64,000 bases of DNA from Allacma fusca (taxonomy: Eukaryota; Arthropoda; Collembola; Symphypleona; Sminthuridae): contig OX359245.1 of NCBI GenBank assembly GCA_947179485.1, positions 75,255,067 through 75,319,066 of the forward strand. The letters run 5' to 3'. Shown one piece after another: positions 4,121 through 63,949 of the stretch; within the stretch, counting starts at the first letter, position 1; each line of letters begins with the position of its first letter. The position numbers and the translations under genes are program-made. The notes beneath the pieces are model-generated. The model was given only the letters and a program-made list of their open reading frames with translations. It was not told the origin of the DNA and ran no database searches.

Positions 4121-4339
4121 AACATTAAGTCAATAATGCAAGGTAAAAAATCCAATATATTCCAAAATTATACAAATCGATGTCGGCTAACTTGGCGGGC
4201 CCTAGTCGACTGACTTGCGAATTCAATTTTCGACAATCGCCAACTTGTGGGCTTTGGCGACTTTCAGACAGATACTTATTTCAGATACGGGTTGGCCCTT
4301 AGAAAATTATTATTAGAAAATTGACTTAGGACTTAATTG

Positions 4340-4860
4340 AACTTTGTTATCGCCTGATACATTCAATCAACTTTTTGAACAATTGATTTGAGATTAGTAT
4401 ACGCCTTGAAAAGGGTTCAAATGTTAACGGTATTATTGAACCAAAACTTTGCAAGCGTCGTAATTAGCTTGAAACTACTTTGCTTAAGTACAGCTATCCT
4501 AAATTGCTTCTACGCTTGCGGCACTGGCATCAGCACCACATCATTGCTGGGATTAATGATATGGCTGCCTTGGACGGTATACTCGTATTTAATGTGATGT
4601 ACGACAATGCTTTTAGCATCCCGAGCAAGATGAGAGAACTGAGGGAAGAGATACACTTGCAAACAATGACCTTAAAAGGGGACCCATTTTGCCAGATATT
4701 TCGAAGGAAGTTAGTATCCGTTCCGAATGTAGCTGTGAAAGTAGGGCATTTTCACTCATTCGAGCGTATTTCAACTCCGAACATGATCGACTACACGGCT
4801 ACACGAACACTTTGTCATTGCTTATCGCCTTCAAGTAAAAGATGGACCAAATTAACTTAA
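4340..4860 (+). pseudogene. Chemoreceptor-like pseudogene, unit A (last exon)
   Basis: The C-terminal part of a seven-transmembrane chemosensory-type receptor. One frame gives a hydrophobic segment (SLKLLCLSTAILNCFYACG). Another gives MYDNAFSIPSKM followed by VKVGHFHSFERISTPNM, resembling the conserved end of arthropod gustatory-type receptors. The two frames do not join cleanly and the upstream exons found at 15290 and 26862 are absent. It lies convergent to the FKBP gene at 5223-6294, a pairing repeated in units B, C and D. The family call rests on the C-terminal pattern and membrane segments, so it is moderate. Confidence 0.5.
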
Positions 4861-5222
4861 TGATGCTTTGTTGTAGTTGCAATATTGGAAAACATAAACT
4901 GTTTTTGACAATTGCGAAACCTTTGCTTTATTTATAAATACTAGCTAAATCCTGATAGCAAACTTAAATTAAGTGTTATGTGATATACTTAATATTTCCT
5001 ATACATACAAAATAAATCAATTGAATGTAATTTAAAAAGAATGTGCACTTTTTTCAACAATTTTGCTGCAGCCATTTAGACATTACTCCTGTGACCTCAA
5101 ACGGATGATTTTGATGGGATATTATGTACAAATAAATCGCGTGTTAAGTAAGTGTTTTATCGTACTATCCCTATAATTAATACTGTAAAAGCTTGAAGTC
5201 AGATCTTATTCTGCCGTTATAT

Positions 5223-6969: not shown

Positions 6970-7745
6970 GGATTTTCAAACTCGACATATTTTTTGTGTG
7001 CCAAGTCCATATAATTCTGCGTAAGACATAAACATTTCCGTTAATATCTTTACGTTTGAAGATTTTTTCAACGTTGTTGTCTACGTTGTCTAGCTTTGCC
7101 CGGATCTTATCATAGTCTTGGATACTATCCTGGTTTTGGTACCCACGCAACAGGCCCAGTATCTATATATAATTACTGGTAGAACGGAATAACAATTAAG
7201 GAATGGATGACAAACAAAATGAAGGGATGAGTAACGCACTATTACTATTAGTAATGGCAGCACCAGCAGTTGAGTCAGAAAGTCTTGACTCATGTATACG
7301 GTTAAGATAATAGTGACGCTTACGTGCACATAATAATAAATAGGAAGCAGGTACCAAGAATATTTGTAGATTGTAAAAACGATCTCACATGAATCATAGT
7401 TTCTAACAAAAATATCCGGATTTAGTGAAATCCCGTTGAGCATCTTAATAGTTTTTGGTAATTGAATAAGAAATTCACAGAATAAAACCGAATTATTTAA
7501 GCTCAATGGTTTTCTGGACCATGTGGTTTGTTTTGGTTTGAACCAAAAAACTGGACCAGACCAATGTTCTGATCTGAGCTTTGGTCCAGACCGGTTTCAT
7601 AAAATCTGGACCAAACCAGACCGCTTGCATCCTTACCACAAATTATGTATCTTAAATTTTTAATTAGGAAATGATAACAGTTTATAACATGGTGTCAAAA
7701 ACCTTGCCATTGAGGCAAGACAACAAAAACCCTTGAGGACCATGG
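6970..7745 (-). pseudogene. Relic of an F-type FKBP/EF-hand gene
   Basis: Positions 6970-7150 match the last exon of the gene at 56530-57857 (YQNQDS, KIRAKLD, VEKIF). A deletion after the second EF-loop start shifts the frame, and the stop codon after the DEF tail is changed (TTTTAA to TTTGAA). Positions 7640-7745 match pieces of that gene's first exon with an internal deletion. Exons 2 and 3 are absent. It lies between copies A and H exactly as F lies between D and G. Confidence 0.75.
7505..7625. repeat. Half copy of the GGACCAGACC hAT-MITE family
   Basis: Matches the end of the element at 43380-43815, with shared words such as TTTCATAAAATCTGGA and GGACCAGACC. Only one half is present. The matching place in the gene at 56530-57857 keeps the other half (57376-57500). 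Confidence 0.65.
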
Positions 7746-12825: not shown

Positions 12826-14433
12826 TTATAGGCTATGAGGTGGGGCCGCCGATGATTTTTGAATCTGGGCAGGATATAGGCTGGGGTTATACAGAGGCCC
12901 ATGTTTGTCATCCCCGTTTACATTTTCTCGCTCAAAATGTTTTTGAAGTATGTCTTCTAACTCGAAGTTCATTTTGGCCCGGGCGTCCTCCTCATTGTCT
13001 GTATTTCCTTTTTGTATATCAATTTCCATGTTTTTTCTAATAAACTCTCATTTGCTGACAAAAAAATATTTGGACAAGTTTAAATTTATTTTTCAAAAAA
13101 ATACTTCAAAGTTTGTACATATACATATGTACACATGCATACAACTAATAGTTGATGTCATGTGAAGGGGGAGTATTGCGGTTTTACGCTATAATGTAAT
13201 TAAAAGCATATGATCTATGAACTTCTACATTACCTCTCCCTGGGAGAGTTCCTTGTCGAAATTAGAGACAGTCTCCTTAAAAAATTCCTCTTTGGAAGGA
13301 ATAGTTTAGAATCTATATTTAATTTCTCATTTCTTGCAAGGCATGGTTTTGCAATGTTAAAATTACCGATGCTGCAAATCGGCTGCGCAGGAAGAGCAAC
13401 TGTCAAAGTGGAAACTTTCATTAGTTTATGTGCCTAGCGTATTCTACCTAACTAGTTTCATTCATGTATGTTGAAACGTGATATTTCTATTTCCAGGCAT
13501 GTCGTTTTTGTCTATTTAACTACATCTGCATAATTAAGGCAAAGATAAATTTACTCTCCTTAAAATTTTGAAAATTATAGTTTATATGAACAAGTATTAC
13601 AAACACGAAATGGATTCTGCATGCTTAGCTAGGCATTTTGAAACTGTCATGCTGACCTCTGCAAGTGTGGGTTATTTCAGGGACTCTGATAAGGACTGTG
13701 ACTGACAGGGACTCATGGGAAACGACAAACGGACTGACTGACTCAAAAGAAACTTAAGACTGATTTTCACTTGGATTGAAAAAGGTATAGGCCAGGGGCT
13801 AGTAGATCCGCGCTCTCCCATAATGCATTACATAAAGCTTTCTATGTACATATATGTAATAAGCCAAGGAGTGGTGGCTGAGTGGTCTGAGCGTTCCGTT
13901 CCTTGTAGTTGGAGTCGGGTTTCGATTCCAGTAAAGCTTTGATCCTTTCTAATAATCACTGCTCTTTCTATCTTCTACTATAGCTTTGTGTGAGGTGAAG
14001 AGGGGGCGTGAAAAGGGTCTTTCACTATGATGATATAGCTCTGCGCTGACTAAGGGGATTCCGTGTGTACGATTACCAGTCAAGTGCAAGAATAAAATGC
14101 GCCATTGTGGGCCTCTGATGCTGCTGCCGCTATGTGTAATAAGCAGTCAGTCAGTTGTCAGTTCTGCTGTTGACTTGTGCTTGCTGTTGTGAAGTGGGCG
14201 GAATGAAATATAAAGTTTATGGCACGGCTAAATTAGTGTATTATTCTCATTGCTGCTAACTAATACCTAGAATCAAAAAAAGTTTCATCAGCGAAGTAAC
14301 ACTTGGAGTGTACAACGAGGGGGTTATGGACTTCGGATTTAATTGTGCAGTTATTTGGATAAATATTGCGCAGTTTGACTTTGTTATAGTTGAAATTAAA
14401 CCTGGAATTATTTGTAGGAGGTGCGCATCCATC
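12826..14433 (-). pseudogene. Relic of an H-type FKBP/EF-hand gene
   Basis: Three scraps in gene order match copy H: a last-exon piece at 12890-13030 (LQKHFERENVNGDD), a third-exon piece at 13232-13305 (EEFFKE, SNFDKELSQ), and a first-exon piece at 14262-14433, whose reverse strand begins ATGGATGCGCACCTCC. All contain frame breaks. Exon 2 was not found. A SINE-like element (13865-14134) lies inside. Confidence 0.65.
13865..14134 (+). mobile_element. tRNA-derived SINE (candidate)
   Basis: The left end carries a box-A-like TGGCTGAGTGG and a box-B-like GGTTTCGATTCC at tRNA spacing. The roughly 270-bp body is bracketed by a 10-bp direct repeat TGTAATAAGC (13855-13864 and 14135-14144), which looks like a target duplication. 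There is no A-tail; the end is GC-rich (TGCTGCTGCCGC). Confidence 0.55.
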
Positions 14434-15289
14434 TAGTTAACTACCTAGATAATGCTTGTATTATTTTCAAAAGTGTATTTGATTCAGTGAGATTGAGCAT
14501 TGGGTCTCTTGGGGCTCTTGACTTTTAGTTTTGGAATCAGAAAAGCTTACGAGGGTTAAATTTGAAGTATTTTATTGATAGTTGAGTTCCCCTGAAAACG
14601 TCAACTTTTTTTTCCAAAAAGGCAAATTATTTATTATATATTCTCTAAACATCAGATAGTGGGCGAAAGTGTTGAAAATTCTGTACGAATGCTCCCAAGA
14701 TTAAATGTAATTGAACGGCCTTGTTATGAAGATGCTTGAAGACTGCTACTGTGTACTCATGATTCGGAAAATTATGACTTAGTACATTAAAACAGCTAGT
14801 ACATGGATATATGTATGTATGCAAGGTTCTTACTGTATTGTTACATAACTTTATAAACAGTCTTAACTTGTTCATTTCGGAATTTCTGTAAACATGGAAG
14901 GCTATCATTAATTTAAACGATCTACATAAGTTGCTGTAAGAAAACATGGAAACTTCAAAAAACTTAGGATAGAGTGCTTAATATTTCACACCTGATAACT
15001 ATATCAACTATGTAAGAATTATGATTTAAAATAATGGTTCGACCCAGATCCAATTAAAAATTTCAGTACGTTTAAACGCAGCAAACCAACTTGGTATGAG
15101 ATTCAAAATTATATTATTTGTGGAATTAACTTGGCACGCGTTGTTTTAGTAATTATTCCTTCAACGTAATTACCCAGACGATAGGGGATTCATAAATAAT
15201 TGCTGCTACTTATTAGATTTCATAATTGATTCATCCATACTAGTTCAGTTCAAACATCAGCACGAGCTTTGAAATTACCGAATTTGGTA

Positions 15290-17320
15290 TGGGGTATTTT
15301 TTGTTCGCTGGCCAGGAACAACCATCACAATTTTCAATGAATTGTTTACGACTTCAGGTATAAGTATGAGGCACCGTTCGTTTAAAACTAGAAATTTCTA
15401 TCGTCTTGTTATGCAACGTAAAACAATATTAGAAAATCACATTTTATTCTAGAAAACAAAAATTTTAACTGGTGCCAATACACTCTTCAGGAGCTTTTAG
15501 CCATTATTGTGTCAGCCATTCCCTGCTGCTTGGGTTCTTTTTACATCCCAATGTACCTGCAGGAGCCGAACCTACTCTTTCGTTATTTCTCCCTCCTGAC
15601 TTCGAAGCTGCCTCTTTTTTCCTGGCCTGCTTGACACTTGAGTCCGTATTTGGAGCACTTCTTCTGCCCATTTACAGCTTCTGTTTCTTTGCACAGCTTG
15701 CTTTCTTCCTGAAATTATTTTCTGTAATTAAGGAGCAAATGGATTTACTTCGGTGAGGACAGGTTTCTTACAAAAGGACAAATAATTAATCCTCCTGAGA
15801 ATTTAGCACGCACTCAATCTTTACGAATATATTTAATTATAGAAACAGCAATGGAAGAATTCATTTGGGATTGGTAGCCGCCTTGAAAACTTGCCGAAGA
15901 GTTCAAATTTTAACGGATTTATTGAACCAATACTTTGCAAGCGTCATATTTACCTTCAAACTACTTTGCACAAGTAGCACCGTCCTAAATTTATTCTGCG
16001 CTTGCTGGCATTGACATCAGAACCCTATCATTCCTGGTATTAATGCTGGGATTGCCTTGGACTGTATATTCGTATTTAATGTGATGTACGACAATGCTTT
16101 TAGCATCCCGAGCAAGATGTGGGAACTGAAGGAACAGATACGTTTGCAAACAATGACCTTAAAAGGGGACCCATTTTGTAAGTTGTTTCGAAGGCAGTTA
16201 GTATCCGTTCCGAATGTAGCTGTGAAAGTAGGGGATTTCCACTCATTCGAGCGGATCTCAACTCCGACTAGAGCTTCCTTCGGGTTTCCGAAATCCCGAA
16301 GTTCCGTGTTCGGAAACGGAACGGAACAATTTCGGAACATTCTTTTTGGTTCCGTCATTGAATCGGGACAAAACCGGAACATGAGCACTTGTACCGATAA
16401 TATTGGGACCGGGACGGTTCAGAGCATCGGTACGAAAAATGTCCCATATAATTTATGACATCGGAAAGCGGAATCGTTCTGTTCCGTTCCGAACCGATCC
16501 CGGTACAATTTCTGAAGTGTTGCGCCATCGTTCAACTAGAATGGAAACACATTTCTTAACGCACTGGCTTGTAAGCAGTTTTTTGCCAAAATAACGAAAT
16601 TGGATGAACACAGATTTAATTTACGCAAATGCTTATATGTAATGCGAGTATCGTTTTCCATGAAAATCAACAGAATAACTAATTTGTTTAATAAACATGC
16701 GCATGGGCGATTTTTCTCGAAATGAAAATTCTGAAATCGAAATTACATATTAGCAGCAATGAAGCAAGCTTGCAGGAAATTAACACTGTTAGGCCATTGA
16801 AATCCACACGCTACAAATATTTATTGCTAAAAAATAATTAATAATAATTATATAATACTGCACAGTAGTTCTTTTCATATGGCCTAATTATTATTAAATA
16901 TTATTTTATATAATTAAATAATAGCAATCCCTAGCATTCAATCTATTAAAAGTATATCATGTATATTAAGTTGCCAGTAATTTGTGCACGCATTTCACGT
17001 ATATGTTGTGAACAATTCCGGGATATTTCGGAACGGAACGGGTTCGGAACGGAAAAACTAGCATAATACGGAACGGAACACAACCTGTAACGGAACAAAT
17101 ACTTTACTCCTTTGTTCCGAACGGTGTCAGTTCAAATGTTCCGATGTCCCGACAGCCGGAACGGAACCGGGACCAATATTATTTGAAGGTTTCGGAACGG
17201 AACAGAATTTCCTATGGACCAAAAATGTTGAACACATTGGAAGCTCTAACTCCGACAATGATCGACTTCACGACGAGGAACACTTTGTCATTACTTATCG
17301 CCTACAAGTAAAAGATGGAC
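15290..17320 (+). pseudogene. Chemoreceptor-like pseudogene, unit B
   Basis: Three likely exons. About 15302-15357 reads IFNELFTTS up to a GTATAAG donor. 15455-15755 starts after a TCTAG acceptor and holds hydrophobic segments (ELLAIIVSAIPCCLGSFY, then after a frame change ESVFGALLLPIYSFCFFA). The last begins near 16030 with MYDNAFSIPSKM and VKVGDFHSFERISTP. It is then interrupted by a 980-bp hAT MITE and resumes at 17249. The frameshift and the insertion make it non-functional. Confidence 0.55.
16269..17248. mobile_element. hAT-type MITE in the chemoreceptor exon
   Basis: Ends are TAGAGCTTCC and GGAAGCTCTA, flanked by the exact 8-bp duplication ACTCCGAC (16261-16268 and 17249-17256). Both halves are rich in GTTCCGTTCCGAACC-like words in opposite orientation. 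No transposase is seen. Paralogous units A, C and D have the uninterrupted site. Confidence 0.92.
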
Positions 17321-18608: not shown

Positions 18609-19682
18609 TTATAACTCGTCTTTCCAATGAATGAAAATCTCATCGTGAGCGATGAATCCGTCCCTGTCTGTGTCATGTTGTTGAAAAACAAATGCAGTCA
18701 TTTTTTCGGGATTTTTCAGCATTGTCCAATCACCCTCGGTTCCTGCCATGTCCTTCCCTTCGGATTTTCTCGCATCGATTCGATTCTTGTAGAAGGTGGT
18801 CATCTGCTTAAGGAATTCAAACAAATTATTTTGTTAAACATCAAATAATTAATGGCTATTCAAATTCGTTGTACATACATGATTATTGTGATGTACAATA
18901 ATTTTATTTAAACTTAAAGGTCAGTTAAATTGCGACATAACCTCTTCTTGGGAAATTAGCTTGTCAGAATTAACATCAGTCTCTCTGAACGCTTCCACCA
19001 TTGGGTGAGTGCCTTTCACAATCTTCAGCAGTTCGATTTCATATATTAAAACTGAATCTATAATAAGGGGAACCATTAAAATTACATTTATAATAGATAC
19101 CATAAATGGAAATGTTATCAATCATAAATGGAAATCATTATGAGATTTTAAAAAATGTACGGTAGATGTCTGTATTATAAACATGTAGAAACAATGGCTT
19201 GGAAAATTTGTTTTGAAAATATTGATTGTTACCTTCCGGGGCTGGTATTTTATTGCCATCGTAGTGCTTTGCAAAATTTGGAGGCACAGTCAACTTCCTT
19301 TTTTCTCCGACACACATGTCCAGAAGACCTTCGTCAAACCCCAGGATGACTTCCCCTTTCCGTAACTAGAATTCGATGGGTTCATTTTTTCCCCAGCTGA
19401 AGAGGACGAGTTGAACAGCAATATTTTAAAAAATGTAAAAGTTTCAGAGCAAATATGTATAATGTAAAAGAGAGTGATCTAACCTGGAATGAAACATCTT
19501 TCCGTCGGAAGTAGTCCCCGTGAAGTGCACCGTCAGAAAATCATAGCTCTTAGACTTGATATTGCAATCTGAAGGCTTGTAGATATAGTCTCGGTTTTAA
19601 GTTGGTCCAGAAAGTGGCTTTCTGTCAAAGCCAGGACGGAAAGAAATGTAACAATTCCGGAGTAATAAGATGTCTTCCTCAT
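18609..19682 (-). pseudogene. Broken FKBP/EF-hand gene, copy B
   Basis: The four exon positions match copies A, C and D (19484-19682, 19233-19396, 18942-19057, 18609-18803) and the splice sites are kept. Exon 1 has a 2-bp insertion near 19583-19586 that shifts the frame, and exon 2 has a TAG at 19366-19368 where the others have a Gln codon. The last exon is still open, with EF loop DTDRDGFIAHDE and a KDEL tail, so inactivation may be recent. Confidence 0.88.
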
Positions 19683-21723: not shown

Positions 21724-22110
21724 CATTCAAAATCCATTGGTTCGAAGGAACAAAACGGCGTTCAATACCACGTCCATCATACTGCGTCTTTCAGGTAGGA
21801 CAAATGCTAAGGCAGAAAACAGGCGTTTAACACTCACTTGAGTTGCAGAAAGGCAAATAATTACCCCAGCTATATATCTCAATGAAGTCGGACCAATACT
21901 GGCCCACCATTCGAATACATCACACTTTACGCCTTTATTTTTTTCACGCGGTATTTTCTCATATAAGGCTAAACCTTCCAACAATGCTGTTCTACTGGAA
22001 GCAGTAGCCGTATATGCAGATTCTTTGTTTTTGTCTTTATTCCTAAGAAATACTTCAAACGGGTCTTCCTCGTCATCGGAAACATTAGCGTCAGGCTGGT
22101 CGACAACTTG
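21724..22110 (-). pseudogene. hAT transposase C-terminal remnant
   Basis: The frame reads VFEWWASIGPTSLRYIAG and QVSVKRLFSALAFVLPERRS, then LFLRTN. This is the hAT dimerisation region near the C-terminus of the transposase (WW, then RLFS). The catalytic N-terminal two thirds are absent. It belongs to the enclosing element at 20573-24693. Confidence 0.82.
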
Positions 22111-26860: not shown

Positions 26861-26861
26861 T

Positions 26862-27910
26862 TGGTCCGGGGTATTTTTTGTCCGCTGGCCAAGAACAACC
26901 ATCACAATTTTCAATGAATTGTTTACGACTTCAGGTATAACTAAGACTCACTGTTAGTACACAACTAGTAATTTCTATCGTATTGTTAAGTATCGTAAAA
27001 CAATATCAAAAAATCGCATTTTATTCCAGAAAACAAAAATATTACCTGGCGCCAATACACTTTTCAGGAGCTTTTAGTCATTATTGTGTCAGCCATTCCC
27101 TGCTGCTTGGGTTCTTTTTACATCCCAATGTACCACCAGAAGCCTAACTTACTCTTTCGTTATTTCTCCCTCCTGACCTCGAAGCTGCCTCTTTTTTCCT
27201 GGCCTGCTTGACACTTGAGTCCGTATTTGGAGCACTTCTTCTGCCCATTTACAGCTTCTGTTTTTTTGTACAGCTTGCTTTCTTCCTGAAATTATTTTCT
27301 GTAATTAAGGAGCAAATGGATTTACTGAACCTGTGAGGACAGGTTTCTTACAAAAGGACAAATAATTAATCCTCCTGAGAATTTAGCACGCACTCAATCT
27401 TTACGAATATATTTAATTATAGAAACAGCAATGAAAGAATTCGTTTGGGATTGGTAGACGCCTGGAAAGCTTGCCGAAGAGTTCAAACTTTAACGGAATT
27501 ATTTAACCAAAACTTTGCAAGCATCATATTTAGCTTCAAACTATTTTGCATAAGTAGCGCCGTCATAAATTTGCCGTCACTGGTATCAAAACCCTATAAT
27601 TGCTGGGATTAATGCTGCGATTGCCTTGGACTGTATATTCGTATTTAATGTGATGTACGACAATGCTTTTAGCATCCCGAGCAAGATGAGGGAACTGAAG
27701 GAAGAGATACGCTTGCAAACAATGACTTTAAAAGGGGCCCATTTTGCAAGATATTTCGAAGGCAGTTAAATTCCGTTCCGAATGTAGCTGTGAAAGTAGT
27801 GGATTTCCACTCATTCAATTGGATTTCAACTCCGAACATGATCGCCTTCACGACGAGGAACACTTTGTCATTACTTATCGCCTTCAAGTAAAAGATGGAC
27901 CAAATTAACT
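26862..27910 (+). pseudogene. Chemoreceptor-like pseudogene, unit C
   Basis: The same three exons as unit B: FNELFTTS near 26880-26937, hydrophobic ELLVIIVSAIPCCLGSFY from about 27046, and MYDNAFSIPSKM from about 27654. One base is missing in a GGGGACCC run near 27736, shifting the frame before the conserved C-terminus. The end of the exon (near 27840-27890) still encodes the family's TLSLLIA-like final membrane segment. Confidence 0.55.
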
Positions 27911-28255: not shown

Positions 28256-31200
28256 TTACAACTCGTCTTTCCAACGACTGAAAAACTCATCGTGAGAGAT
28301 GAACCCATCCTCGTCTGTGTCATGTTGTTGAAAAACAAATGCAGTCATTTTTTCGGGACTTTTCAGGATTGCCCAATCACCATCGGTTACTTCCATATCC
28401 TTTCCTTCGGCTTTTCTCCTTTTGATTCGATTCTTGTAGAAATTGGTCATCTGATTAAGGAATTCGAACAAGTTATTTTGTTAAACATCAGTTGATTAAA
28501 GGCTGTTTAAATTCGATGGAAATGATTATTTTGATGTACAATAATTTTATTTAAACTTAATAAGCAGATAAATCTCTAGCCTCTTCTTGGGAAATTAGCT
28601 TGTCAGAATTAACATCAGTCTCTCTGAACGCTTCCACCATTGGGTGAGTGCCTTTCTCAATCTTGAGCAGTTCGATTTCATATATTAAAACTGAATCTAT
28701 AATAAGGGGAACCATTAAAATTACATTACAGAGTTCGTGTAGAGTTCGTAGTGAGTAGACGTAGGTTAGTCGAGCTCGCTTATCACTTCTGGTATCTTTA
28801 AGTTTGAATATTCATATCTTTGAAGAATATAACGATAGAGAAGCTTTTCCAAGCTTGTATAAGTGTTAAGAACCACTGTGAGTAAGGGGGAAACCCCTGC
28901 TTTGTGAACGATGGCTCAGCCAAAAGAATACGGTTTTGTAATTAAAAATGTAGAAGGTGCTACACTAAATGATTATCTTGTTGCTATAACAAAAGAAGTT
29001 GGTGACCCACAAAAGATTAAAAATATTGGTAAAGTGAAACTAAACTACGGGATCTGGGTGGCAGATGAACAATCGGCTGAAAAACTCCGTGCCTTGACGT
29101 TTCTTGAAGTTAAAAATCAGTGTGTTACAATCTGGCCTTATATTACACCCCTAAAGCGGGTGAAACTGATAGGAGTCCCTCCATTCATTAAAAATAGTGT
29201 CCTAGAACAAGAACTGCAAAAGCATGGAATGGTTAAAGATAAAATTGAGTTTGAAAGTGTTTTTGGAGTAGATGAGTGCTTTAAGCATGTCATGGGCTTC
29301 ACAAGAAGCGTGTATATGGCCTTCGATGAAGGAAGGTTCTTACCAGAAACAATTACTATAGAGCAAGATGAACGAAAGTTTATTATTACTACACAAGTAG
29401 GACGTAGGAAATGCTTCACATGTGGGAGCTTCCAACACATTGGAAGCACATGTGAACTGAAAAAGATGATGTCGTACGCAAATGCGGTAACTGAAAGTGT
29501 CCCAGTCAAACTAGACCCAAAAAATTACCCATCATTATCGAAACTGCCTGAAAATCTTAAGCTAATTAACATAAGATCTAGACATTTAAGCAACCCTGAA
29601 AGTGCTAATAGTGCTGATGATGCCAGAGGTAGTAAAGATGATGACGAAAACACCAATAAGCGTAAAAGGAAAGTTAAACTACGTGTATTACGCAATGTCA
29701 AGACAAGAGGCACTCATGATTGGTGCTATGAGTACTGGAAAGACACAAAATTCAACAACGGACAACCTTGTAATAACAAGGAGCTATTACGATTTTTGCA
29801 AAGTATTCCCCGAGATAAAGATGGAAATATGATACTTATTCACCGAGCTGCAATGTCCTTCAAAAACATTCCTACGCTAACTACGACCTTGTTTGAACTC
29901 AGAACTTCTCTTAGGCCTGAACGACATGCTTTTGAACGGGACGGCATACAGTACATAATTGATGCCCTCCGAGGTGATGATAGTGATCTCATATAACGCC
30001 CAAGGACTAAGGAATATTAAACGAATAAATGAATTAAGAAACCTAACACATAAACTGTGCCCTGACGTTTTATGTATCCAAGAGACAAACATTGATCCTG
30101 CCATACATACTAAATGCAACGATAAAAAATACAGTGAATACTACAATCCACCTATATCTGCATTTAGTGGAACAGCAATCCTTATTAAAACCCAATATAC
30201 AACCACACATAAGATACTAATGCCTGGCAGGATGCATGCCATTATAATCACCAACGATGACAAACCCCTACATATCATTAATGTACACATGCCACACAAT
30301 GAGATAGAAGCCTTTAAAATGTACGGCATTCTTTCTAAGTATCTTCAAACCACAACATGCAATAATGTTATAATGTGCGGCGACTGGAATTATGTGCATG
30401 ACCCCAGCCTTGACAGAAAAAACTCTAAAGAAAATCGAATTAAACTTAAACGCAACATGGATAAATTAATAAAGAAAAACACATTCATAGATTGCTACAG
30501 GAAGCTCTACCCAAATGGAACAGCAATGACACACATAGGTACACATACTCACAAGCCTCAAGCCCGTCTCGACCGGGTCTATGTAAATGCCACCTTATCA
30601 GATAAAATAATAGCCGTTAATACTTATCCTGCATTTAGTGATCACGCCCTTGTCCTTGTAAAACTACAATTAAAGAAAACTTTAAAAAAATCCATTTGGA
30701 GGTTAAATAATAAGATTCTCAAAAATCCAATCTTTAATTGGCAAGTTGAAAACCTTCTACAAAATTTTATAAATAATGAACAACGAACGATACAAGATTA
30801 TGAAGTGCTAAAATTCAAAATTAAAGAGGCTGTTATATCCATCGAACAACTCATGGCTCGTGAGCTTACTAATAATCTGAGACGCATTGAGAGACAATAT
30901 GCAAATAGTACGGAAAGAATAACTACACAAAAGTTGTATGATGAGATGATAGATACTCTAGGCGGTAAGAGTGCACAAAGTGAAAGCCTTTCTAAAGTGC
31001 ATAACATTTACACAGAAACCTGCATTGAAAATGCCCTGAGCAATATGACAGACAAAAATAAATTGCTAAATGTACATAATTTTTTTTCAGAAAAAATACA
31101 GCCCACACACTAAAAACTCACAGATGTATGAAACATACCTACAAAAACTCAGAAAGCTATCTGACATTCAGAAACACACAATGAGCCAAGAAATTACAAT

Positions 31201-34200
31201 AAAAGACGTTGCTGAGGCAATACAAAATTTACAGGAAAAAAAATCTCCAGGTTCTGATGGTCTGACCAGTGAATTTTATAAAAAATTTGAAGACTATTTC
31301 AAAATAATAATCTTATGGTTAATTAACGTATCACTACAACATAATTTGTTACCTGCATCCCTGCGTACAGGTATTGTCACTCTAATATTCAAAAAGGGTG
31401 ATCCCAAAAATCTAGGAAATTACAGACCGATAACTCTCTGTAACTCTGATTATAAAATTGTATCCATTATCTTAAAGAACAAAATAATGCCGTACTTGTC
31501 ACATGTGATTGGAGAATACCAAACCTGTAATGTTCCAGGGAGATCAATTTATGATAATTTAAATTTCTTGCGAGACGCTACTTATGAAATGCATACTGGC
31601 GGACTTGTATCGCTAGATCAAGAAAGTGCCTTTGACAACGTTGACAGGAACTTTGGAATTGCTTGCCTACAAGCAATGAATTTTGCCCCTGCAGTGATAA
31701 AAATAGTTGAGCTACTATATAATGAAAACTATATTATTGTAAAAATTGGTGAGCTACTCACTACCAGGATTAAAGTTTTACGTGGAATTAAACAAGGAGA
31801 TCCTATTGCCAGCATATTCTTCATAATTTGCAGTGAGATCCTACTGTGCAGACTTAACTCGTGTCTGGAATTCGCTGGACCTTCTCCATACATCATAATG
31901 CCCACAACGTATATATCAGCCTATGCTGATGACACGCACATTTTAGTCAACAATGCCAAACACTTTGAAATTTTAGAAGAAGAGTTAAAAATATTTTTCA
32001 CGTTTTCTGGAGGGAAGCTTAACAGAAATAAGTGCAGCTGCCTCCTTTTTGGTGATTGGGTCTCAAAACCTCCAATATGTGACTTCCCTCTAGTATATGA
32101 TGGAGTTAAAATATTAGGTGTGTATTTCGGATCTACATCTTACATTAGTAAAAATTGGTCTGAATTGCGAGAATCAGTTGCCGTGAAAATGGAATTCTAT
32201 TCAAACAAATTTCCAAACGCTGGCTTAATCTTTCGATTGCAAATACTTAACACTTTTATAATCCCAATAATTTGGTACCGACTCAAGGTTCTGGATCCTC
32301 CTGAAACGTTCGTAAACAGCATAACGGATGTAATTGAAAAATTCCTTTGGAATGATCGGAAAAGGTGGGTAAATAGATTCTTCCTGCACAGCAAGAAATC
32401 ATATGGAGGCCTCAATGTCAAACATCCTATAACACAAGTCGAAAAGTTTAGAACAATACAATTAATAAAGAGCATTGAAGGGACAAAGAACTCATACTTC
32501 AATGAGCAGTGTTCAAAAAGACTACGGAATATTCTAATTGGAAGTGAAAAATATAATCAACTGCAGTACTACAATAAAATAGAGAAACTTTTAGAAAGTG
32601 CTCAATTCAGGATAAGACCAATACCAGACGACTTATTAAAACTAATACCGATTGATAATTATGTTTCGAAACCTCACAAATTGTTCCTACAGAGGATAGG
32701 AATTAGGAAGATAAATGAACTATTAACCTTAGAAAGCAATAATAATCTACCAAGCCATCAGTGCAGAACTGCCGAAATTCTAAAAACCCGATACAAAAAG
32801 GAACTAGGTGATATGCGCGTATCTGAAACCAATAAGTGTAACTATGAAATTTTCAATCATCTACAAAATGCTTTCTCCACAATAACCAGTGGTAATATGT
32901 ATATGATCTACGTGTGTAAAAACCTTAGGATGTATCTAAACGATGAAGTTAAAAAAAAGATTCATGACTACAATTGGAAAATTCTGGAAGTAAGTTTCAC
33001 CCTAAGTGAATATGAAATTGTATGGAAATTATGGCATAACGCCTTATGTAGTCCGGTTATGGCCCAAAAAATGAATCTAATAAATAATAACAAGTGCCTT
33101 TTCTGTAGCAAAGTCAACACACGTGCTTCGCACTACACTAACTGTGAACTTTTTATTGATATGTGGCTCTATTGCCAAAAGCTAGCCGACCTGGCCAAAC
33201 ACAAATGGGATGATAACACAAGACAACGAGGATCAAAAGTTTCAAACAGCTTTTTCCATGTTATTAGTGCAGCCTATTCAGTAATTTATGAGTATGTCTA
33301 CTTACATCTTAATAATGAAATCTTTAAGAAGGAACCAGTTACGAGCTTAAAACAAAAAATATATGAAATAATATATATTCAATTCCAACATGCTAAATGT
33401 GGTGGATCTATAACAATTCAACAATTTAATAAGTACTGGTCTCCTCTTAAGTTTCTGTATGTAATTGTAGGCTCAGAAATAAATGTTTGCCTCCCGAGGG
33501 CATAGCGTCTAACTATGGACTCGGTCAGACCTTTCACCAAGCTGGGAGAAATAAGCGACTCCTGTAACCCCTGAGCTGGGAGCATGTGAAAGTGGATGGT
33601 ATCAGTGCAGACCAAACAACCTAGGCCGGGGCCTTACCCTGTAATCCATTTGGAGGCCGTTGTTTGTGAATGCGCTGGAGAGACAACAATTTTAAGAATA
33701 ATGTGAAAGACGGGCTTTTGGTCACAAATAATTATGTTAAAAAAAAGACACCGGACATGTAAAATGTATTGCCTGAATAAAACCTTACCAATGATCTAAT
33801 GAAAAAAAAATTACATTTATAATAGATACCATAAATGGAAATGTTATCAATCATAAATGGAAATCATCATGAGATTTTAAAAAATGTGTGGTAGTTGTGT
33901 AATTTATAAACATGTAGAAACAATGGCTTTGAAAATTTGTTTTCAAAATATTGCTTGTTACCTTCCGGGGCTGGTATTTTATTGCCATCGTAGTGCTTTG
34001 CAAAATTTGGAGGCACAGTCAATTTCCTTTTTTCTCCGACACACATGTCCAGAAGACCTTCGTCAAACCCCAGGATGACTTCCCCTTTCCGTAACTGGAA
34101 TTTGATGGGTTCATTTTTTTCCCAGCTGAAGAGGACGAGTTGAACAGTAATATTTTCAAAAATGCAAAGATTTCAGAGCAAATATGTATTAATGTAAAAG

Positions 34201-36329: not shown

Positions 36330-36585
36330 GGAAAGTAAAATCCAGTCCGCGGGCTCCCTCAATTAAATGCGGGCTCGCGAGCTCACGGGTTCCCTCAATA
36401 AAATGCGGGCTCGTGGGCTGCGCGCTCCCTCAATTCAAGTGAGCTCACGGGCTGCGGGCTCCCTCAACAAAATAGAGGTCACGGGCTGCGGGCTCCTTTA
36501 ATAAAATTAAGCTCACGCGTTGCGTGCTCACGGGCTGCGGGCTCTCAACAAAATTAGGCTGACGGGTTGCGGTCTCACGGGTTCA
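36330..36585. repeat. GC-rich tandem repeat at the outer end of the foldback
   Basis: About seven diverged units built on GCGGGCTCCCTCAATAAAAT and GAGCTCACGG. A shorter version stands at the other end (34615-34655). Confidence 0.75.
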
Positions 36586-39607: not shown

Positions 39608-39802
39608 TTATAACTCGTCTTTAAAACCACCGAGAAACTCGTCGTGAGACATGAATCCATCTTTGTTTAAGTCACGTTGCTGAAAAACAACTTCAGCAAT
39701 TTCCTCGGCATTTTTCAGCGTTTCCCGATCACTCTCTCTTAATTCCTTATCCTTCCTTTCGATTTTTCTCTTGTCGATTCGATTCTTGATATAAGTGATC
39801 AT
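39608..39802 (-). pseudogene. Lone last exon of an FKBP/EF-hand gene, copy E
   Basis: Open frame matching exon 4 of copies A and D: MITYIKNRIDKRK, EF loop DLNKDGFMSHDE, KDEL tail. Its 3' flank (39301-39600) also belongs to the duplicated unit. Immediately upstream (39803 on) the homology stops, so the exons for the signal peptide and FKBP domain are missing. A free EF-hand fragment is unlikely to be made. Confidence 0.82.
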
Positions 39803-43815: not shown

Positions 43816-43823
43816 CTCGGAAC

Positions 43824-45025: not shown

Positions 45026-46550
45026 CTAATGAACCTTCAACTTTAGAAGTAGAATTAGGATTGTCAGGATCTGCTCCATCATGCTTTGTGGGGTTGTAAT
45101 TGTACAATATACAGTGAGGATCCGGGCACCGCAAAATCGAAGACTTCTCACCGTCATCAATAATGACTTAATGGCCATTTTATCGACGACTGAATTACCT
45201 TGAAAATCAAGCGTTGGCCTACTGTTTCCCGTGTAAACCTGAGCTCTCAAAATGATATTTGTTCTTTCGGATATCACCCTTATGTAGCCAATTTGGGTGA
45301 ACAATATACAAATAATGAAGAGCATTGCACAAGCAGTTACTGGGAACAACATGTACACATAGAATTCCAGGGAATCATAGGCTGTGATAGCAACATACAA
45401 GCAGATTGTAGTGATTCCACACACAATGAATACCATGATTGAAAGTAATTCATAGAATAGCTCATTGAAAAAATTCGTGAGGAGGTAAATTTGTTGAACT
45501 GTTTTCAGTTTCTCTTGATAACGCTTCCGACAAAAGACCATGGAAGGACCATCGTCCTCTGGTTTTCTAAAATGAGATTTCATTTTGAAGCGTTAAAGGA
45601 AAGTCCAAGTTAGAATTAACACATAGGGTATATAATGAGTAATTTTTTATTGTTAATTTATTTTGACTTGAGCCAAACTCTTACTGTAATTTTGGAAGCC
45701 ACTGAAGTATATTCACAAAATAACAGCAGAATATTGTCATTGACAACATGCACACGGTGATGCAGTGGAACGAAATGTAAAATTCATAGACACCCAAAAT
45801 ACAACGAACCAAGTAATTAGAGTATATTTCTGGTTTCAGCTGGGATCCCACAAACATGGAATAGTGCGGGAAGATGATACAGGTCAAGGCGAAGACAGAT
45901 GAGAAGGCAAAACTTTGATATATTAAGCCAAGTATTGGAAGTATGGCAGCTGGCGATTCCCACCAGAATGACATTTTGTAACCATCTCCTAATCAAATAC
46001 TTTTAATTAAATACAGCTTTCACATCTATTTTATAAAATGTAGTTTCATAAACAATAAACACGAAAATTATTATATTGTTGACAAAATATGTAGCATGAA
46101 AGTATCAGCAGTACGTGTCATCTTTTTTTGAAGCGAATCTAAACCATTTAAAATTTCAACCAGAGCCTCAGGATGATACGTGCACATTATCAACTGGGTC
46201 GATGCAGCCGATGTAACTACAAGCTTTACCAAATGAACCGCCACTTCCGTCCTGATTTTTCCCAATGATACTACCTGGTAAAATGTTATCAGGATGTAAA
46301 TAAAGTAAAGGTGAACCTGAAAAGAACTCAAGTAAAATAGGAAATACGATGCGGACTGAGCCTTTTGTTTTCTTATTCTAATGGTGTTAGCGTTAGGAGA
46401 TTTTATTCGAGCGATAGGAACTGCTTTGAGCCGGACGGCAATATCAATGTAAGATTTGATCAGAGGTAATATTTTCTTGCCTACAATGTCGGACAGACTA
46501 CCGTCTCTAACCCGATTGATATCCAATGGTTTTTTGGAAAATTCGGCCAT
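45026..46550 (-). CDS. Seven-transmembrane chemosensory (gustatory-type) receptor
   Basis: Three exons (46115-46550, 45685-45988, 45026-45566) join through GT-AG introns with matching phases to 426 codons, the usual length of arthropod gustatory receptors. The cytosolic N-terminus (about 1-75) is basic. Hydrophobic segments follow, including HLYFIYILITFYQVV, AAILPILGLIYQSFAF, FYISFHCITVCMLSM, LLSIMVFIVCGITTICLY and FPVTACAMLFIICILF. The tail (MAIKSLLMTVRSLRF, then TTPQSMMEQIL and a hydrophobic end) matches the conserved last segment of the family. Such proteins are ligand-gated cation channels of sensory neurons. A dead sister exon lies at 47226-47715. The ligand is unknown. Confidence 0.75.
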
Positions 46551-47225
46551 TTGTGCGCTCTCAAGTTTGATTGCTTTACGTACGTCTAATGGTTATTCTG
46601 CATATTATAGTCTTCTCTTATCGTAGTCTGGAAGTTGACTGGGCCCAAATATGCGAGGCTCTGGAGTATATTTTATGTGCTCACAGTTTACTGCCGACGC
46701 AAAATGCAAGGGAACTTAAATATATACCTTTGGTGTCAATGTCGATGTACATAAGTAATTATTCCTATAATGCTTACATTGCCATAGATTGCGAGATATC
46801 GGATTGCAAATGACTGTAGCCATAACTAACTAGTTTTCCATGTAAATCAAAATATAATTTTGTAATCTTTTAGTTGAATTGGTAGGTAGTCAAAAATTGT
46901 CTCGACAATTGACAACTTGCGATTAAACGTCCAGCAAATTCAAAACGTCAAGAAAACACTGATTATTCGCGTTAGAAATATCTTATTTGCTATCTCAAAT
47001 TAACAGGTAATTGCCAAATTTTGAAATAAATTTTGTTAAACTATTGCGTGGGTCTGGAAACATTATTCTGAATGGATCAAATCTTTCAACCCGACAGTAA
47101 ACAGGTTTGTTCCACTCCCGGCGCTACCAACCCATCTTTTTTCATACAAATGTCTGTACTTAATAAATTCCAGCCAGGATATCTATAGATACTAAAAATC
47201 ATCTCTGTCTTTATATACATGGAAA

Positions 47226-47715
47226 TTATAATATTGTAATCAAAATATCCAGCATAAAAGTATCAGTAGTACGTGTCATCTTTTTTTGAAGCGAGTCTAA
47301 ACCATTGAAAGTTTCATCCAAAGCCTCAGGATGACACGTGTACATTACCAACTGGACCGATGCAGTCGATGTAACTATACAATATTTACCAAATGAACCG
47401 CCACTTACTTCCCAATGATAAAACAGCTGGTACAATGTTATCAGGAGGTAAATAAAGTAGAAATGAACTTGAAGAGAAGTCAAGTTAAATACGAAAATTC
47501 GATGTAGACTTGTCTTTTTGTGTTCTGATTCTAATGGTGTTAGCGTTACGAGATTTTATTGGAGCGATAGGAACTACTTTGAGCCGAACGGCATTATCAA
47601 TGTAATATTTGATCAGAGGCAATGTTTTTATCTCTCTATCCCGATTGTTGTCTAAAGGAATGTTATCGGAAAATTCGGTCATTTGTGGGCTCTCAATTTT
47701 GACTGATTCATACAC
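47226..47715 (-). pseudogene. First-exon relic of a sister chemoreceptor
   Basis: Closely matches exon 1 of 45026-46550: IRTQKDKSTS, QVHFYFIYLLITLYQ, CHPEALDETFNGLDSLQKKM. The frame breaks after NFRI (near 47485) and part of the middle is missing. Exons 2 and 3 are not found to its left, so it is a truncated tandem copy. Confidence 0.78.
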
Positions 47716-49155
47716 GGTGATGCGAATCTAATGGTAGCTCCACATAAAGTATTATTTTGATGTAGTCTAGAAGTTGACTGGTGCCAGACACTGAAGTAAA
47801 TAGTATGTATTAACAGTTAACAGCTCACACAACTTTATTATTGATATTCCGTGCGAATGGCTACTGGGTAAGTAGATAATTATTGGCACACATGTCCATG
47901 TACATATGCAATTATTCCTATAATGATGAAATTTACTGAGATATTGCGAGATATTGTTTGCAAATCACTTACTTAATTTGTTTTCCAAATATATACATAA
48001 ATAAGGCATAATTTGGTATTCCAATATGCCCAAGAAACCACTGAATATTTGAATGCGTAAAACATTATTGCATGCTTCAAATATACAAGTATATAATTTC
48101 TAAATGTTCAATGGTGAATAATTATTGAATGGTTCGTTGCCACAACAATTATCACTATTAAATTATTTTCAAACGAGCTATTTACTGAACACGTGGTCTC
48201 GTCCAAAATTTAGGAATGAATTCAATTGTCAGGCATACATTTATAACAGAATATTTTGAATGGTATAAAACTTTAAACCCAACAGGACTAAACCGTTTCG
48301 TCCACTCCCAGCACTCCAATCCACATTTTCCAGAAATCATTCAGTAAACATAATCTGTCAGGGCACCCATTTGACACATAATCGTTGTCATAATTTATCA
48401 AAGAATATTTCTGTGTCTTTCTCCAGGTTGAGCACTATGTATATGTCGGGACAAACAAAATTATGTGTATAGTAAATATTAGCAAATTATTGCACTCTTT
48501 GGCAGAGCTATTTAAAATGAAATACCTAAAATAGTGAGGATACAAAATACAAAGTAAAATACCTGAGCTCATATTATTAAGATAAAAATACAACACAGAT
48601 AGTCCAAAACACTCAAAATAAAATATATTTCTTAAAATACTCCTAATGCCCACTTGTTTCAGTTTCTAAAGTAGATATAGCTTAAACAAGCAACCTTAAT
48701 CAAAGAGTAAAACGTTTTAAGAACCTGTATGACCTGTATGGTAATAATCTTTACAACGGATACAGATTAAGCCAGTCCAATGTAATTACATTTCTAGATG
48801 TTTAGCTATCCTAAATTAGCTGATTTGGCTGCCTAAAGTAAGTAGGCTTTAAAATAGAATTTGTATCATTTATTATTTAATCTATTTTTAGAATAACTAA
48901 TAGAATGGAGCTGAGCTATAATTTTTACTACCCAATTCATCAAAATGTTTTACATGAATTTTCACCTCAAGGCAAAATTATCAATTTAACTTAAGCTCAA
49001 ATGTGAGTTTGAGTGAAATTCAAACTCAATTTTGAACTTAATTGTAACTTCGAAAAAGCTTCGAAAAGTAATTAGTGCACTTCCTCTATGACATTGTGTC
49101 TTGACCATATTATCTTCATTTTATTTTGTAGTGCATGTAGATAATTTCTGTTACA
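47716..49155. other. No gene recognised
   Basis: AT-rich. A minus-strand frame at 48435-48653 (ILYPHYFRYF) faintly recalls exon 2 of the chemoreceptor but is too weak to call. Confidence 0.4.
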
Positions 49156-49233: not shown

Positions 49234-49234
49234 A

Positions 49235-50024: not shown

Positions 50025-50364
50025 ACTCCTTAAACTTCGGCGACACAACAGAGTGCAATCGAATTCAATTGAAAATAGATGGAGAAGTTGTTCCAATTTA
50101 CTACAATAATCCTCTTTGAATTGAGTTTGTTTCAAGCATACGATTGTATTGATTATAGTTCTATAACATCATCTATAGTATCATGTTTTAGTAACAAATT
50201 GCCTTTGTCTATTATTACGTTAAATACTATGCAATAATCTCCAAATGCAATACATGGTGAATGCCATTGTTATAAAATAGGTAACAACTTCCACCAAATC
50301 GGCTGCTGTAGAATTGTTACAAAATTACTACATTCTATATAAACACAGTTGGAGCAAAATTTCC

Positions 50365-50436
50365 GCCCTCGCAGGGACTCGAACCCTGGACCCCGCGGTT
50401 AAAAGCCGCGTGCTCTACCGACTGAGCTACAAGGGC
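50365..50436 (-). tRNA. tRNA-Lys (anticodon UUU)
   Basis: A 72-nt cloverleaf. The acceptor stem GCCCTTG pairs with CGAGGGC with one G-U. The D-arm is TAGCTCAGTCGGTAGAGCA, the anticodon loop CTTTTAA, and the T-arm GGGTTCGAGTCCC. Box A and box B of the internal Pol III promoter are intact. No intron. A T-rich terminator is not obvious. Confidence 0.96.
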
Positions 50437-54299: not shown

Positions 54300-54690
54300 G
54301 TGAATTGAATGTAAAACTACTTTGCATAAGTAGCGCCGTTCTAAATTTATTCTACGCTTGGCTGCACTGTCATCAGAACCCCATCATTGCTAGGATTGTT
54401 TTGGACTGAATATTCGTATTTAATGTGATGTACGACAATGCTCTTAGCATCGCGAGAAAGATGAAGGAACTGAAGGAAGAGATACGCTTGCAAACAATGA
54501 CGTTAAAAAGGGACCCATTTTGCAAGATATTTCGAAGTCAGTTAAAATCCATTCCGAATGTAATTAGTTGTAAAAGTAGGGGATGTCCACTCATTCGAGC
54601 GTATTTTCACTCCGAACATGATCGACTTAAAGACGAGGAACACTTTGTCATTAATTATCGCCTTCAAGTAAAAGATGGACCTAATTAACA
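54300..54690 (+). pseudogene. Chemoreceptor-like pseudogene, unit D (last exon)
   Basis: Matches the last exon of units A-C (MYDNALSIARKMKELKEEI, then SRGCPLIRAYF in a shifted frame). Small insertions near 54560 (GTAATTAGTTG for GTAGCTG) break the frame before the FHSFERIST-like motif. Convergent with the FKBP gene at 55035-56035. Confidence 0.55.
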
Positions 54691-56529: not shown

Positions 56530-57857
56530 TTAAAACTCGTCATATTTTTTGGGTACAAGTCCATATAATTCTGCGTAAGAGATATAACCATTTTTGTCAA
56601 TATCTTTACGATTGAAGATTTTTTCAACGTTTTCATCTACTTTGTCCAGCTTTGCCCGGATCTTTTCATAGTCTAGGACGCTATCCTGGTTTTGGTACCA
56701 ACGTAACAGTTTCTTGACATGAATGCTCATCTTCAAATAAAAAATAAATACATATTTATTCTGGCAATATTTCAAAGAGCTCTTCCTTCAAATTACATCT
56801 ATCAAGTATACATACTGACATAGATTTAGAAGAACTTAATAAAAAGTACTAACATTCGTCTAACCTCGTCTCGGGAGATTTTCCTATCCGAATTTAGGTC
56901 AATCTCTTTGAATACTTCAGCATTTGAAGGAGGAGATTTGTCAATCTTGAGCAATTCCATCTCGTATTGCAGGACTGAGTCTAAAAAATAATTATAAAAG
57001 TTTAATCAGGAGTCACGTCAATAAATTTTACTAATTTTGGAATAAAGCACTTTTTTTTTACTTACCTGAAGGAGCCACTGTTTTGTAACCAGGTTTTGCA
57101 ACAAATGCTAAATTCGGGGGTACAATCAACATTCGTTTTTCCCCAACACACATATTTATGAGGCCCTCCTCCCAACCCATCATTGCTTCTCCAACTCCTA
57201 TTCGAAATGTCACGGGTCGATTCTTCTTGCGGCTATTAATATTACAAGGGGAATTAAAATCGGTGTAAATAATTGTAAAAAGGTATTCGTATTGTGCTCC
57301 TGAGTAAGCTCCTATAGAGTTTACAGAAATAAATAATTTATTTCCTGCAATTTGATATTAATGGGTTTGAGAACCTGTGGTCATAAATTTCAAAAAAAAG
57401 TCTGGTCCAGCGTGGCCCTAGTGTTGGACCGGTCCAGAAACAATTGGTCCAATATCAGGACCAGGCCAGACCAAATCACAGGACTCTGGACCTAAAATTT
57501 GCAAAATAAAATATCATGTTTTAGACCTTACTACAAATTAGAGCCAGTTTGGAAGCCTAACCAAAAATTCCAATATTTGATACTGCCTATAGATCCTTCA
57601 CTGTCTCTACGTGTCTTAATTATTTAATTTGGAAATAATAACAGTTTTGTTAACCTGGAGTCAAAAACCTTGCCATCAAGGGTGGTTCCGGTGTAATGTA
57701 CAGTTAAAATATTTCGGTGGACCGATTTCTCTGTGCAATTTACTGGTTTGTGTAGCGTCTCAACCTGAAGTTTGAGTACAATAGCATCTACGAAAATTAT
57801 TCTTGTTAATTGTAGGACAACAAAAACCCTTGAGGAAGAATAAAACGCACTACTCAT
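56530..57857 (-). CDS. ER FKBP-type protein with two EF-hands, copy F
   Basis: Exons 57655-57857, 57066-57232, 56865-56980 and 56530-56730 join to 228 residues. A hydrophobic N-terminus is followed by an FKBP domain with VHYTG, VFDSS and MCVGEKRMLIVPP. Tyr and Phe-Asp are kept, but VIKGWD reads AMMGWE. EF loops are DLNSDRKISRDE (151-162) and DIDKNGYISYAE (205-216). The C-terminus is YDEF, close to but not a standard retention signal. Intron 1 holds half of a GGACCAGACC MITE (57376-57500). Dead relatives lie at 6970-7745 and 49156-49233. Confidence 0.84.
57376..57500. repeat. Other half of a GGACCAGACC hAT-MITE
   Basis: Words such as ACAATTGGTCC and GCAAAATAAAAT match the half of the 43380-43815 element that is missing at 7505-7625. 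It lies in intron 1 of copy F. Confidence 0.6.
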
Positions 57858-58711
57858 GTCGTATATGTTTATTAAAATTAAAAATTATTTAGGAGCGATA
57901 TTAAAAAGAAATAAAAACACAAAAGGGAAAAAGGAGCAAGTAAGGCAAGGCGTAATATTACAATGAAAGAATAAGAACTCATTTAATGTTTGTACGCCTG
58001 AAGAACTTGTTAGGATCTTTATTAATTTGTAAAGCTAATTTCTATTAATTGCAATTCCCCTATATAGTTGCTACAAGTTAATTACTTGTTTGTCACGTTT
58101 TTAAATATTGATACCCTTGAAGCGAAATTGAAGCTAAATTGATTTTTTATCACTCACAATATGTAAGTGTGAAAAGGACTTTTCACCATTGTTTCCGTAT
58201 AGTTTTACTTCCAACGTAGGTTTTTAACTGTTGAAAGGTGTCTATTTAAAACATAATGCTATTTCTATTTGATTGCTAAAATTTCTAATTATTAAAACAT
58301 GTCTTTCAAACACGCGTCGATAAAAATTCATCCGTGGATGTTGAATATTAAGTTAAAATTTTTCTCGGAGTAGACACCGTGTTTATTTATCATCATAAAA
58401 TTGGGTTTATCTTTTTGGGGATGCATTTGTATGTTAGAAAGGAATTTGATGTATGCTTCTTTTTAGAATAAATAATTACAACCAGACCTTGCAATCAATA
58501 GTTTGTGCATTTTATTTTTAAAATTCACAATTTTACTTGCAATGTAAAAATATTGAGATATAAGGAGCCCCTAACGTTTTACTTTAGGAAGTGCCTTAAA
58601 GCAAAAAAATTTTTTTTTCAACTCTGTATAATTTAACCATCGGTAAAATAATGTGCTCCATCCCTAAATTAAGTTAATTTTTGTAATGAGCAAGTTTAAA
58701 TTAATGTGTTC
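57858..58711. other. Intergenic between FKBP copies F and G
   Basis: AT-rich, no coding region or element ends seen. Confidence 0.5.
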
Positions 58712-60124
58712 TCAAAGCTCATCATGCTTTGGCCCGGAAAATTCTTCAAAGCTAATGATGCTGTTTTTGTCCTTGTCTTCGTGCTGGAAGATCTCTTCTA
58801 CAAGTTTGTCATGCTCTTCCAAAGCCTTCCGCATCTCTTCCTCATCCTCTTGGATATCTTCCGACTCCATTCCTTGCAGCTGTTTGTTCAGGTACTCACT
58901 CACCTGGGAAACCCAGCGGACATATTAGCATTTTTAAAACAAAATTTCCGGCCTTATTAGAGCCTATAGGCAGGCTCTGTGAAAAATATTATCAATAATT
59001 ATTATATTTTATATTGCATTTGAGAATTTCATGGCTGGTCTCAAGGACATAAAAATCCTTGCCTATTAAAAACAGTACAAGTAGAAACAATTCTCATTTT
59101 GAAACAATTATTCAAAGACATATTTCAATGGGTAAATTTCATGCACACGTATGTTTTGAGTACATGTGCCTTTGTAAGTGTACAACAAAAGTTATAAACA
59201 AACTTGGAAACTCATTTCTTTGCAATAAAAACTTTCGTTTGTTAATAACAACGCCGCATCATGCCTCACGTTTCCTCAGCCTTTTTTCTACAAGAGCAAA
59301 AATGAAAAAATGCTGCTGCTTCATTAGCCACAATGCTATTTTTTATGAGGGGCATGCTATTATAAGATTCACACTTGGGATCTGTCAAAGTGACAATTTA
59401 AAAAAAATAACTCTCTTACTTCATCCCGATTAAGCTGCCCATCCGAATTAGTGTCAATTTCCCTGAAGACATTTAGAGTCGGAGCGGATTTTTCAACCCT
59501 GAGCAATTCGGTTTCATAGAAGACAGTGGTGCCTTGGTTTAAATTAGAGCAGATTTTAAAAATTATACTCTGGTAATTGAAACAAGTCAGCTTCTGTAGT
59601 TAAAAAAGAATAGGAATTACACCCGGGTATTTATTACCTGGTGGAACAATGTCCCCAGCCCCAGGCTCACCAAAGGCTAAATGAGGGGGAACTACTAATT
59701 TCCGTTTCTCTCCCACGCACATGTTCAGGAGCCCTTGATCCCAGCCCTTAATGACTTGTCCCACACCCAATTGGAATGTAAAGGGGATGTCCCTTTCTCG
59801 GCTGCAAAAAAAAACAGGCATTGTTTACAAAGTTACATAATTCCTGACACATTCCTAGAGAATCTTATCATTACAAGTAGAATGTACGTAGATGTATTAT
59901 ATCTAAACTCTACCGTATTTTAACGCTCACCTGCAGTCAAACACCTTCCCATCAGCAAAAGTCCCAGTGTAGTGCAAAGTCAAATGACTCCCTTTCTCCG
60001 CCTTCTCCAAGCATTTTTTGGGCTTGTACGTAGTTTCAACTTGGAGCTTCGGAGCGGCTGAGGTAATCACCAAAATGTAAGCCAGGATCAAGCCCAAAAA
60101 AGTTGCACGGAAGGCCTGTCTCAT
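58712..60124 (-). CDS. FKBP14-type ER prolyl isomerase, copy G (canonical)
   Basis: Exons 59931-60124, 59638-59801, 59420-59532 and 58712-58903 join to 220 residues. Signal peptide about 1-23. The FKBP domain has all expected pocket residues: [39 protein letters not shown] loops are [12 protein letters not shown] (146-157) and [12 protein letters not shown] (200-211), with an acidic linker ([10 protein letters not shown]) and an HDEL tail. Members of this family catalyse proline isomerisation in the ER and help fold collagen. Of all copies here it departs least from the family, so it is likely the parent gene. It is head-to-head with the calcium-channel gene, 2.1 kb away. Confidence 0.92.

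Positions 60125-62245: not shown

Positions 62246-63949
<1,704 letters not shown>

Follow-up and report, generated by a model that had tools for sequence, protein, structure and literature searches.

Chromosome 1 of the springtail Allacma fusca carries ten open genes of FKBP14 type over approximately 89 kb, together with six relics of the same kind. Six of the open genes lie in the 64,000-nucleotide stretch analysed here (C1:75255067-75319066, hereafter the window). The cluster most likely reflects the tandem expansion of an FKBP14 protein of the endoplasmic reticulum (ER), with an FKBP14 nearer to the human one retained on X2. It would comprise a second FKBP14-like gene, R, and three derived lines: H; the B line, with copies B, K1 and K2; and the A line, with copies A, K5, K6, DE and G, to which pseudogene C is related by type. 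We think it probable, if not secure, that the copies are FKBP14 paralogs under weak purifying selection and that the A line has an altered or lost isomerase function. An earlier note on this DNA had described a family with birth and death still visible, and the tandem expansion, the open copies, the relics and a retrotransposon lodged within one copy bear this out.

Copies were located with a spliced aligner and their ends were fixed from reading frames. The R gene lies on the minus strand at 58712-60124, with exons of 194, 164, 113 and 192 nt (60124-59931, 59801-59638, 59532-59420 and 58903-58712). These four exons encode a protein of 220 residues with a hydrophobic N-terminus, an FKBP domain, a pair of EF-hands and an HDEL end, in line with the architecture given in the note. 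The protein matches human FKBP14 (PDB 4msp) across residues 24-220 with an E-value of 2.2e-37, and as a tblastn query it recovers other copies far above chance (E-values of 5e-24 and 1e-29, for example). Also open on the minus strand are H (57857-57655, 57232-57066, 56980-56865, 56730-56530), G (56035-55839, 55751-55588, 55479-55364, 55229-55035), B (9300-9107, 8742-8579, 8382-8267, 8193-7999), A (6294-6098, 5994-5831, 5667-5552, 5417-5223) and DE, described below. Four more open copies, each with four exons, lie to the left of the window: K6 at -3626 to -4695 (window-relative, as for all negative positions), K5 on the plus strand at -10207 to -9143, K2 at -25285 to -26430, and K1 at -27213 to -28527. 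The four-exon plan, with start and stop, is common to all open copies, and their exons measure 188-203, 164-167, 113-116 and 192-201 nt, stop counted.

Pfam FKBP_C was above cutoff in all four copies scanned (R, A, B and H), and the remaining six open copies align throughout; the Pfam EF-hand model was above cutoff in three of the four, with B under it. Two EF loops follow the FKBP domain in every open copy, with D, N or E in 80 of 80 ligand cells, against 37% D, N, S or E in that part of the protein. The FKBP cysteine pair is present in 10/10 copies, and all ten N-termini are hydrophobic, judged by hydropathy only (Kyte-Doolittle 12-residue maximum 2.07-2.98). The (K/H)DEL end once ascribed to the whole family survives as xDEL in six of the ten (HDEL in R, KDEL in A, K5, DE and G, NDEL in K6), with YDEF in H (as KYDEF) and HNEF in B, K1 and K2. 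We consider it most likely that the proteins pass into the ER and fold as FKBPs with the cysteine pair; the two EF-hands most likely bind calcium, and the C-terminal signal most likely holds the proteins in the ER.

The isomerase pocket differs between the lines. As a reference we used the FKBP12 sequence and nine pocket core positions, both assumed here to be apt. The X2 copy keeps eight of the nine FKBP12 residues, R seven, K2 six, K1 five, H and B four each and the A line two or three, with human FKBP14 at five. All five open A-line copies share the replacements Y26F, D37H, W59F, Y82K and F99Y; Y82K is the least certain, as the alignment is loose around positions 82-91, whereas F99Y occurs in each of the ten array copies and so is not confined to this line. 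Mean identity to the X2 protein among the ten copies is 0.37 at the nine pocket positions and 0.53 in the FKBP domain. For the A line the values are 0.20 and 0.51, and its pocket score is equalled or exceeded by 98.7% of random nine-column draws; by the same measure, human FKBP14 has 0.56 against 0.53 and FKBP12 0.89 against 0.47. Pocket change beyond that of the rest of the domain is thus a property of the A line, the change in B and H being moderate. The earlier note's word "chaperone" is only partly safe, because three lines (H, B and A) have an altered pocket and the alteration is greatest in the five A copies.

Selection on the array, as estimated from coding changes, is weakly purifying overall and clearest for the FKBP domain. 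The average ratio of nonsynonymous to synonymous change (dN/dS) is below 1 in both the A and B lines, with pairwise values of 0.41-0.67 in ten A-line pairs and 0.35-0.44 in three B-line pairs. Codon models (F3x4) were compared with a null of omega = 1 at the best of seven kappa values, using 223 codons for the A line. Twice the log-likelihood difference was 7.77 for the A line (omega 0.63), or 6.77 without DE, 18.15 for the B line and 138.56 for R, X2 and H; the FKBP part alone gave 6.70 (A) and 18.02 (B). Pooled pairwise ratios for A and B, respectively, were 0.36 and 0.31 in the FKBP domain, 0.71 and 0.43 in the EF1 part, 0.93 and 0.52 in the linker, and 1.23 and 0.79 in the signal. The EF2 loop plus tail gave 0.16 and 0.20, from few changes pooled across non-independent pairs. 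The codon bootstrap for A-line exons 1-3 spans 0.31-0.76. Exons were less divergent than introns in all 15 pairs among six A-line sequences including C, exon 4 being about as divergent as the introns. Between R and X2 the FKBP-domain ratio is 0.08, at a saturated synonymous distance.

Several of these observations pull against a conserved family with a pocket-altered A line. The whole EF-hand part is not distinct from omega = 1 (twice the log-likelihood difference 1.04 for A, 0.89 for B), and the few, non-independent changes behind the EF2 ratio limit its force. The A-line linker ratio has a bootstrap range of 0.46-2.15, the A-line signal ratio lies above 1, and exon 4 of the A line as a whole has a ratio of 0.55 with a range of 0.31-1.01, the upper bound reaching neutrality. 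The B-line pocket is not specially altered, with an identity of 0.52 against 0.48 for its domain. Four copies (H, B, K1 and K2) carry EF in place of EL at the C-terminus. Lastly, human FKBP14 is an active isomerase (PMC6965642), although it keeps only five of the nine residues and, like the A line, has H as residue 37. Pocket change therefore does not prove inactivity, and we rejected D37H as a proof that the A line is inactive.

The FKBP14 on X2 (C9:14143199-14145247) has four exons of 191, 164, 113 and 192 nt, as the array copies do. It is 50% identical to mature human FKBP14, the array copies being at 35-41%, and it shares 63% identity with R and 39-46% with the remaining array copies. R and X2 cluster in the tree with a Shimodaira-Hasegawa-like approximate likelihood ratio test (SH-aLRT) value of 98.6 and an ultrafast bootstrap of 90; by the approximately unbiased test, a grouping of the other array lines with R is not rejected (p 0.32), and one with X2 is not rejected either (p 0.08). 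Deep nodes have SH-aLRT values of 38.9 and 52.1, and the tested alternatives were not rejected. H, B and A may form one group because exon 3 is one codon longer in all three (116 vs 113 nt). Within the A line, pseudogene C included, Jukes-Cantor exon distances are 0.06-0.16. We considered gene conversion among A-line copies because 13 of 15 pairs show greater similarity in the 5′ half than in the 3′ half (C and DE, for example, at 96.2% and 86.8%), and it could account for this pattern. Both halves recover the group C, DE and G; K5 and K6 come together in the 5′ half only (99/100).

Duplicated blocks would account for the multiplication of the derived lines; in the A line they also include pieces of a second, membrane-protein-like gene. 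Since the pocket is replaced identically in all five open copies, A-type proteins most likely work not as isomerases but by binding or holding clients in a calcium-dependent way. In human FKBP22 isomerase activity resides in the FKBP domain, where the authors argue that collagen is bound too, and disruption of the EF-hands left that activity unchanged (PMC6965642). By analogy with these domain roles, A-type proteins could retain client binding on the surface of the domain, and a response to calcium, despite the replaced pocket. A stronger claim seems to us doubtful, namely that the A line constitutes a new class in function: a pseudo-isomerase of the ER that binds calcium, with a single pocket replacement that five copies have since retained.

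An ordinary birth-and-death surplus, in which redundant FKBP14 copies under relaxed selection head for loss with no new function, is a credible though unlikely account. It would fit the six relics that stand next to ten open copies, the A-line omega of 0.63 with linker and signal near 1, an EF-hand part not distinct from neutral, and a DE gene that holds a retrotransposon and a GC splice donor. It fits less well with five A-line copies that are still open at exon distances of 0.10-0.16, with FKBP-domain and EF2-loop ratios well under 1 in two lines, and with the same five pocket replacements in every open A copy. A dosage effect, with extra copies yielding more active FKBP14-type isomerase for collagen-rich secretion, for instance, is improbable: human FKBP22 (FKBP14) does fold and bind collagens (PMC6965642) and R retains seven of nine pocket residues, but the array lines share only 31-47% protein identity, unlike a dosage array, and the pocket differs among them. 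An assembly artefact, either a single locus multiplied by the assembly or haplotypes joined end to end, is barely credible, because the copies have diverged (A-line exon distances of 0.06-0.16), the retrotransposon is in one copy only with an empty site in another, there is no N in the 144 kb read, and the published assembly is 80-fold HiFi with a consensus quality value (QV) of 58.7 (PMC10427803), even if its curation removed 23 haplotypic duplications (same source), so that drafts did have such errors.

The empty site bears on how the loci are counted. DE is a single A-type gene on the minus strand, open over four exons (34410-34214, 34125-33962, 28696-28581, 28450-28256). Its intron 2 holds a long interspersed nuclear element (LINE) on the plus strand at 28728..33806, with endonuclease and reverse transcriptase frames (Exo_endo_phos 1.9e-16; RVT_1 4.7e-27) and an A-tail. 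The target-site duplication at its edges measures some 10-11 bp; the target is single in copy C, which is contiguous there. We therefore rejected the fragments at approximately 28.26-28.70 kb and 33.96-34.41 kb as two relics and read them as one gene split by an insertion. Splicing of DE is doubtful, as its exon 3 donor is GC in place of GT.

By this count the window holds ten FKBP14-type loci, six open (A, B, DE, G, H and R) and four relics (C, F, X and B2), all on the minus strand. The figure of eleven or more loci given before, without a list, probably counted the two DE pieces separately; the array and its six open genes are confirmed, and the "at least five" relics become four. Relic F is a lone open exon 4 at 39608..39802 ending in KDEL, and in a self-comparison no block of at least 120 nt upstream of about 39808 was in common with other copies. 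C (18609..19682) is a pseudogene with a frameshift in exon 1 and a stop in exon 2. X (12907..14432) is a decayed B-type relic with part of exon 1 and pieces of exons 3 and 4, and B2 (6978..7153) is an H-type exon 4 with frameshifts. The array is not confined to the window: the four K copies above and two relics, K3 (about -23829 to -23450, plus strand) and K4 (about -17491 to -18977), extend it up to 28.5 kb leftwards, to approximately C1:75226539. Nor does the single strand hold there, since K5 and K3, two of the six left-hand loci, are inverted.

The suggested search of the assembly with the 58712-60124 protein yielded these further copies and the X2 gene; the expansion may be lineage-specific, as the note proposed. 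Queries were the proteins of R, A and B (26, 37 and 27 matches), but not H, and the 91 contigs searched total 392,743,791 bases; the counts are lower bounds, as the search scores best candidates only. Among the matches listed, FKBP14-like sequence occurs solely in this stretch of chromosome 1 and at C9:14143220-14145244. The others, at C9:1439k, C12:53.4M and C5:25.3M, were judged from alignments to be other FKBPs, and a likely FKBP2 lies at C9:1439222.

Four A-type copies in the window, A, C, DE and G, stand tail-to-tail with plus-strand pieces of the co-duplicated gene. These lie at 4382..4812 downstream of A, 15288-16281 with 17249-17308 downstream of C, 26582-27888 downstream of DE, and 54314-54668 downstream of G. 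The gene has long hydrophobic stretches and is represented by three successive frames at -21785 to -20451, with fragments across the cluster. It gave nothing above cutoff in Pfam or NCBIfam and no match among PDB sequences; a likeness to arthropod chemoreceptors is our presumption. Frames at 45029-47969 on the minus strand also have long hydrophobic stretches and look chemoreceptor-like by eye, with no Pfam match above cutoff; within them, 46055-46815 and 47213-47969 form a direct repeat of 73% identity.

Other elements lie within and around the array. A tRNA-Lys (TTT) gene occupies 50364-50436 on the minus strand (Rfam 71.3 bits), dense minisatellites with units of 54, 24, 48, 34 bp and others fill 34684-36581 between DE and F, and a minus-strand frame at 21730-22110 resembles a hAT dimerisation domain under the Pfam cutoff (E 0.0021). 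Long minus-strand frames at L009:3-6839 look, by eye only, like a long terminal repeat element. Immediately left of K1, the last copy, a 355-residue cysteine-rich open frame runs on the plus strand from L011:9831 to L012:895. The right flank holds plus-strand ion-channel exons at 62618-63982 and L015:1241-1753 (Ion_trans 9.1e-15, 4e-11 and 2.5e-26), which we take to be a voltage-gated calcium channel alpha-1 subunit.

Among known proteins, FKBP2/FKBP13 is likewise an ER FKBP, and PDB 4nnr matches R residues 8-135, leaving the EF-hand part uncovered. FKBP14/FKBP22 (human PDB 4msp; Drosophila CG9847) shares the hydrophobic N-terminus, FKBP domain, two EF-hands, cysteine pair and alignment over the mature protein, and in R and X2 the HDEL-type tail. 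The H, B and A lines depart from it in their pockets, and H and the B line in their EF ends. Drosophila has one FKBP14 gene among eight FKBPs (PMC5870485), in contrast to the tandem family here, and Locusta has 10 FKBPs in total (PMC10006077). In titles and abstract openings of mostly open-access literature we found no FKBP array described for springtails or any other arthropod. The array sets an expansion on an autosome next to a relative on an X chromosome, in a species whose elimination of sex chromosomes is unusual (PMC10427803). With ten copies, pockets altered by degrees, calcium loops retained and decaying neighbours, it would offer a natural series for the role of an FKBP fold in the ER without the standard active site. 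Tandem birth-and-death families are known in arthropods, gustatory receptors among them. The FKBP14 array resembles such families in its tandem arrangement, relics, inverted copies and co-duplication, and differs from them in what has been amplified, here a folding factor of the ER.

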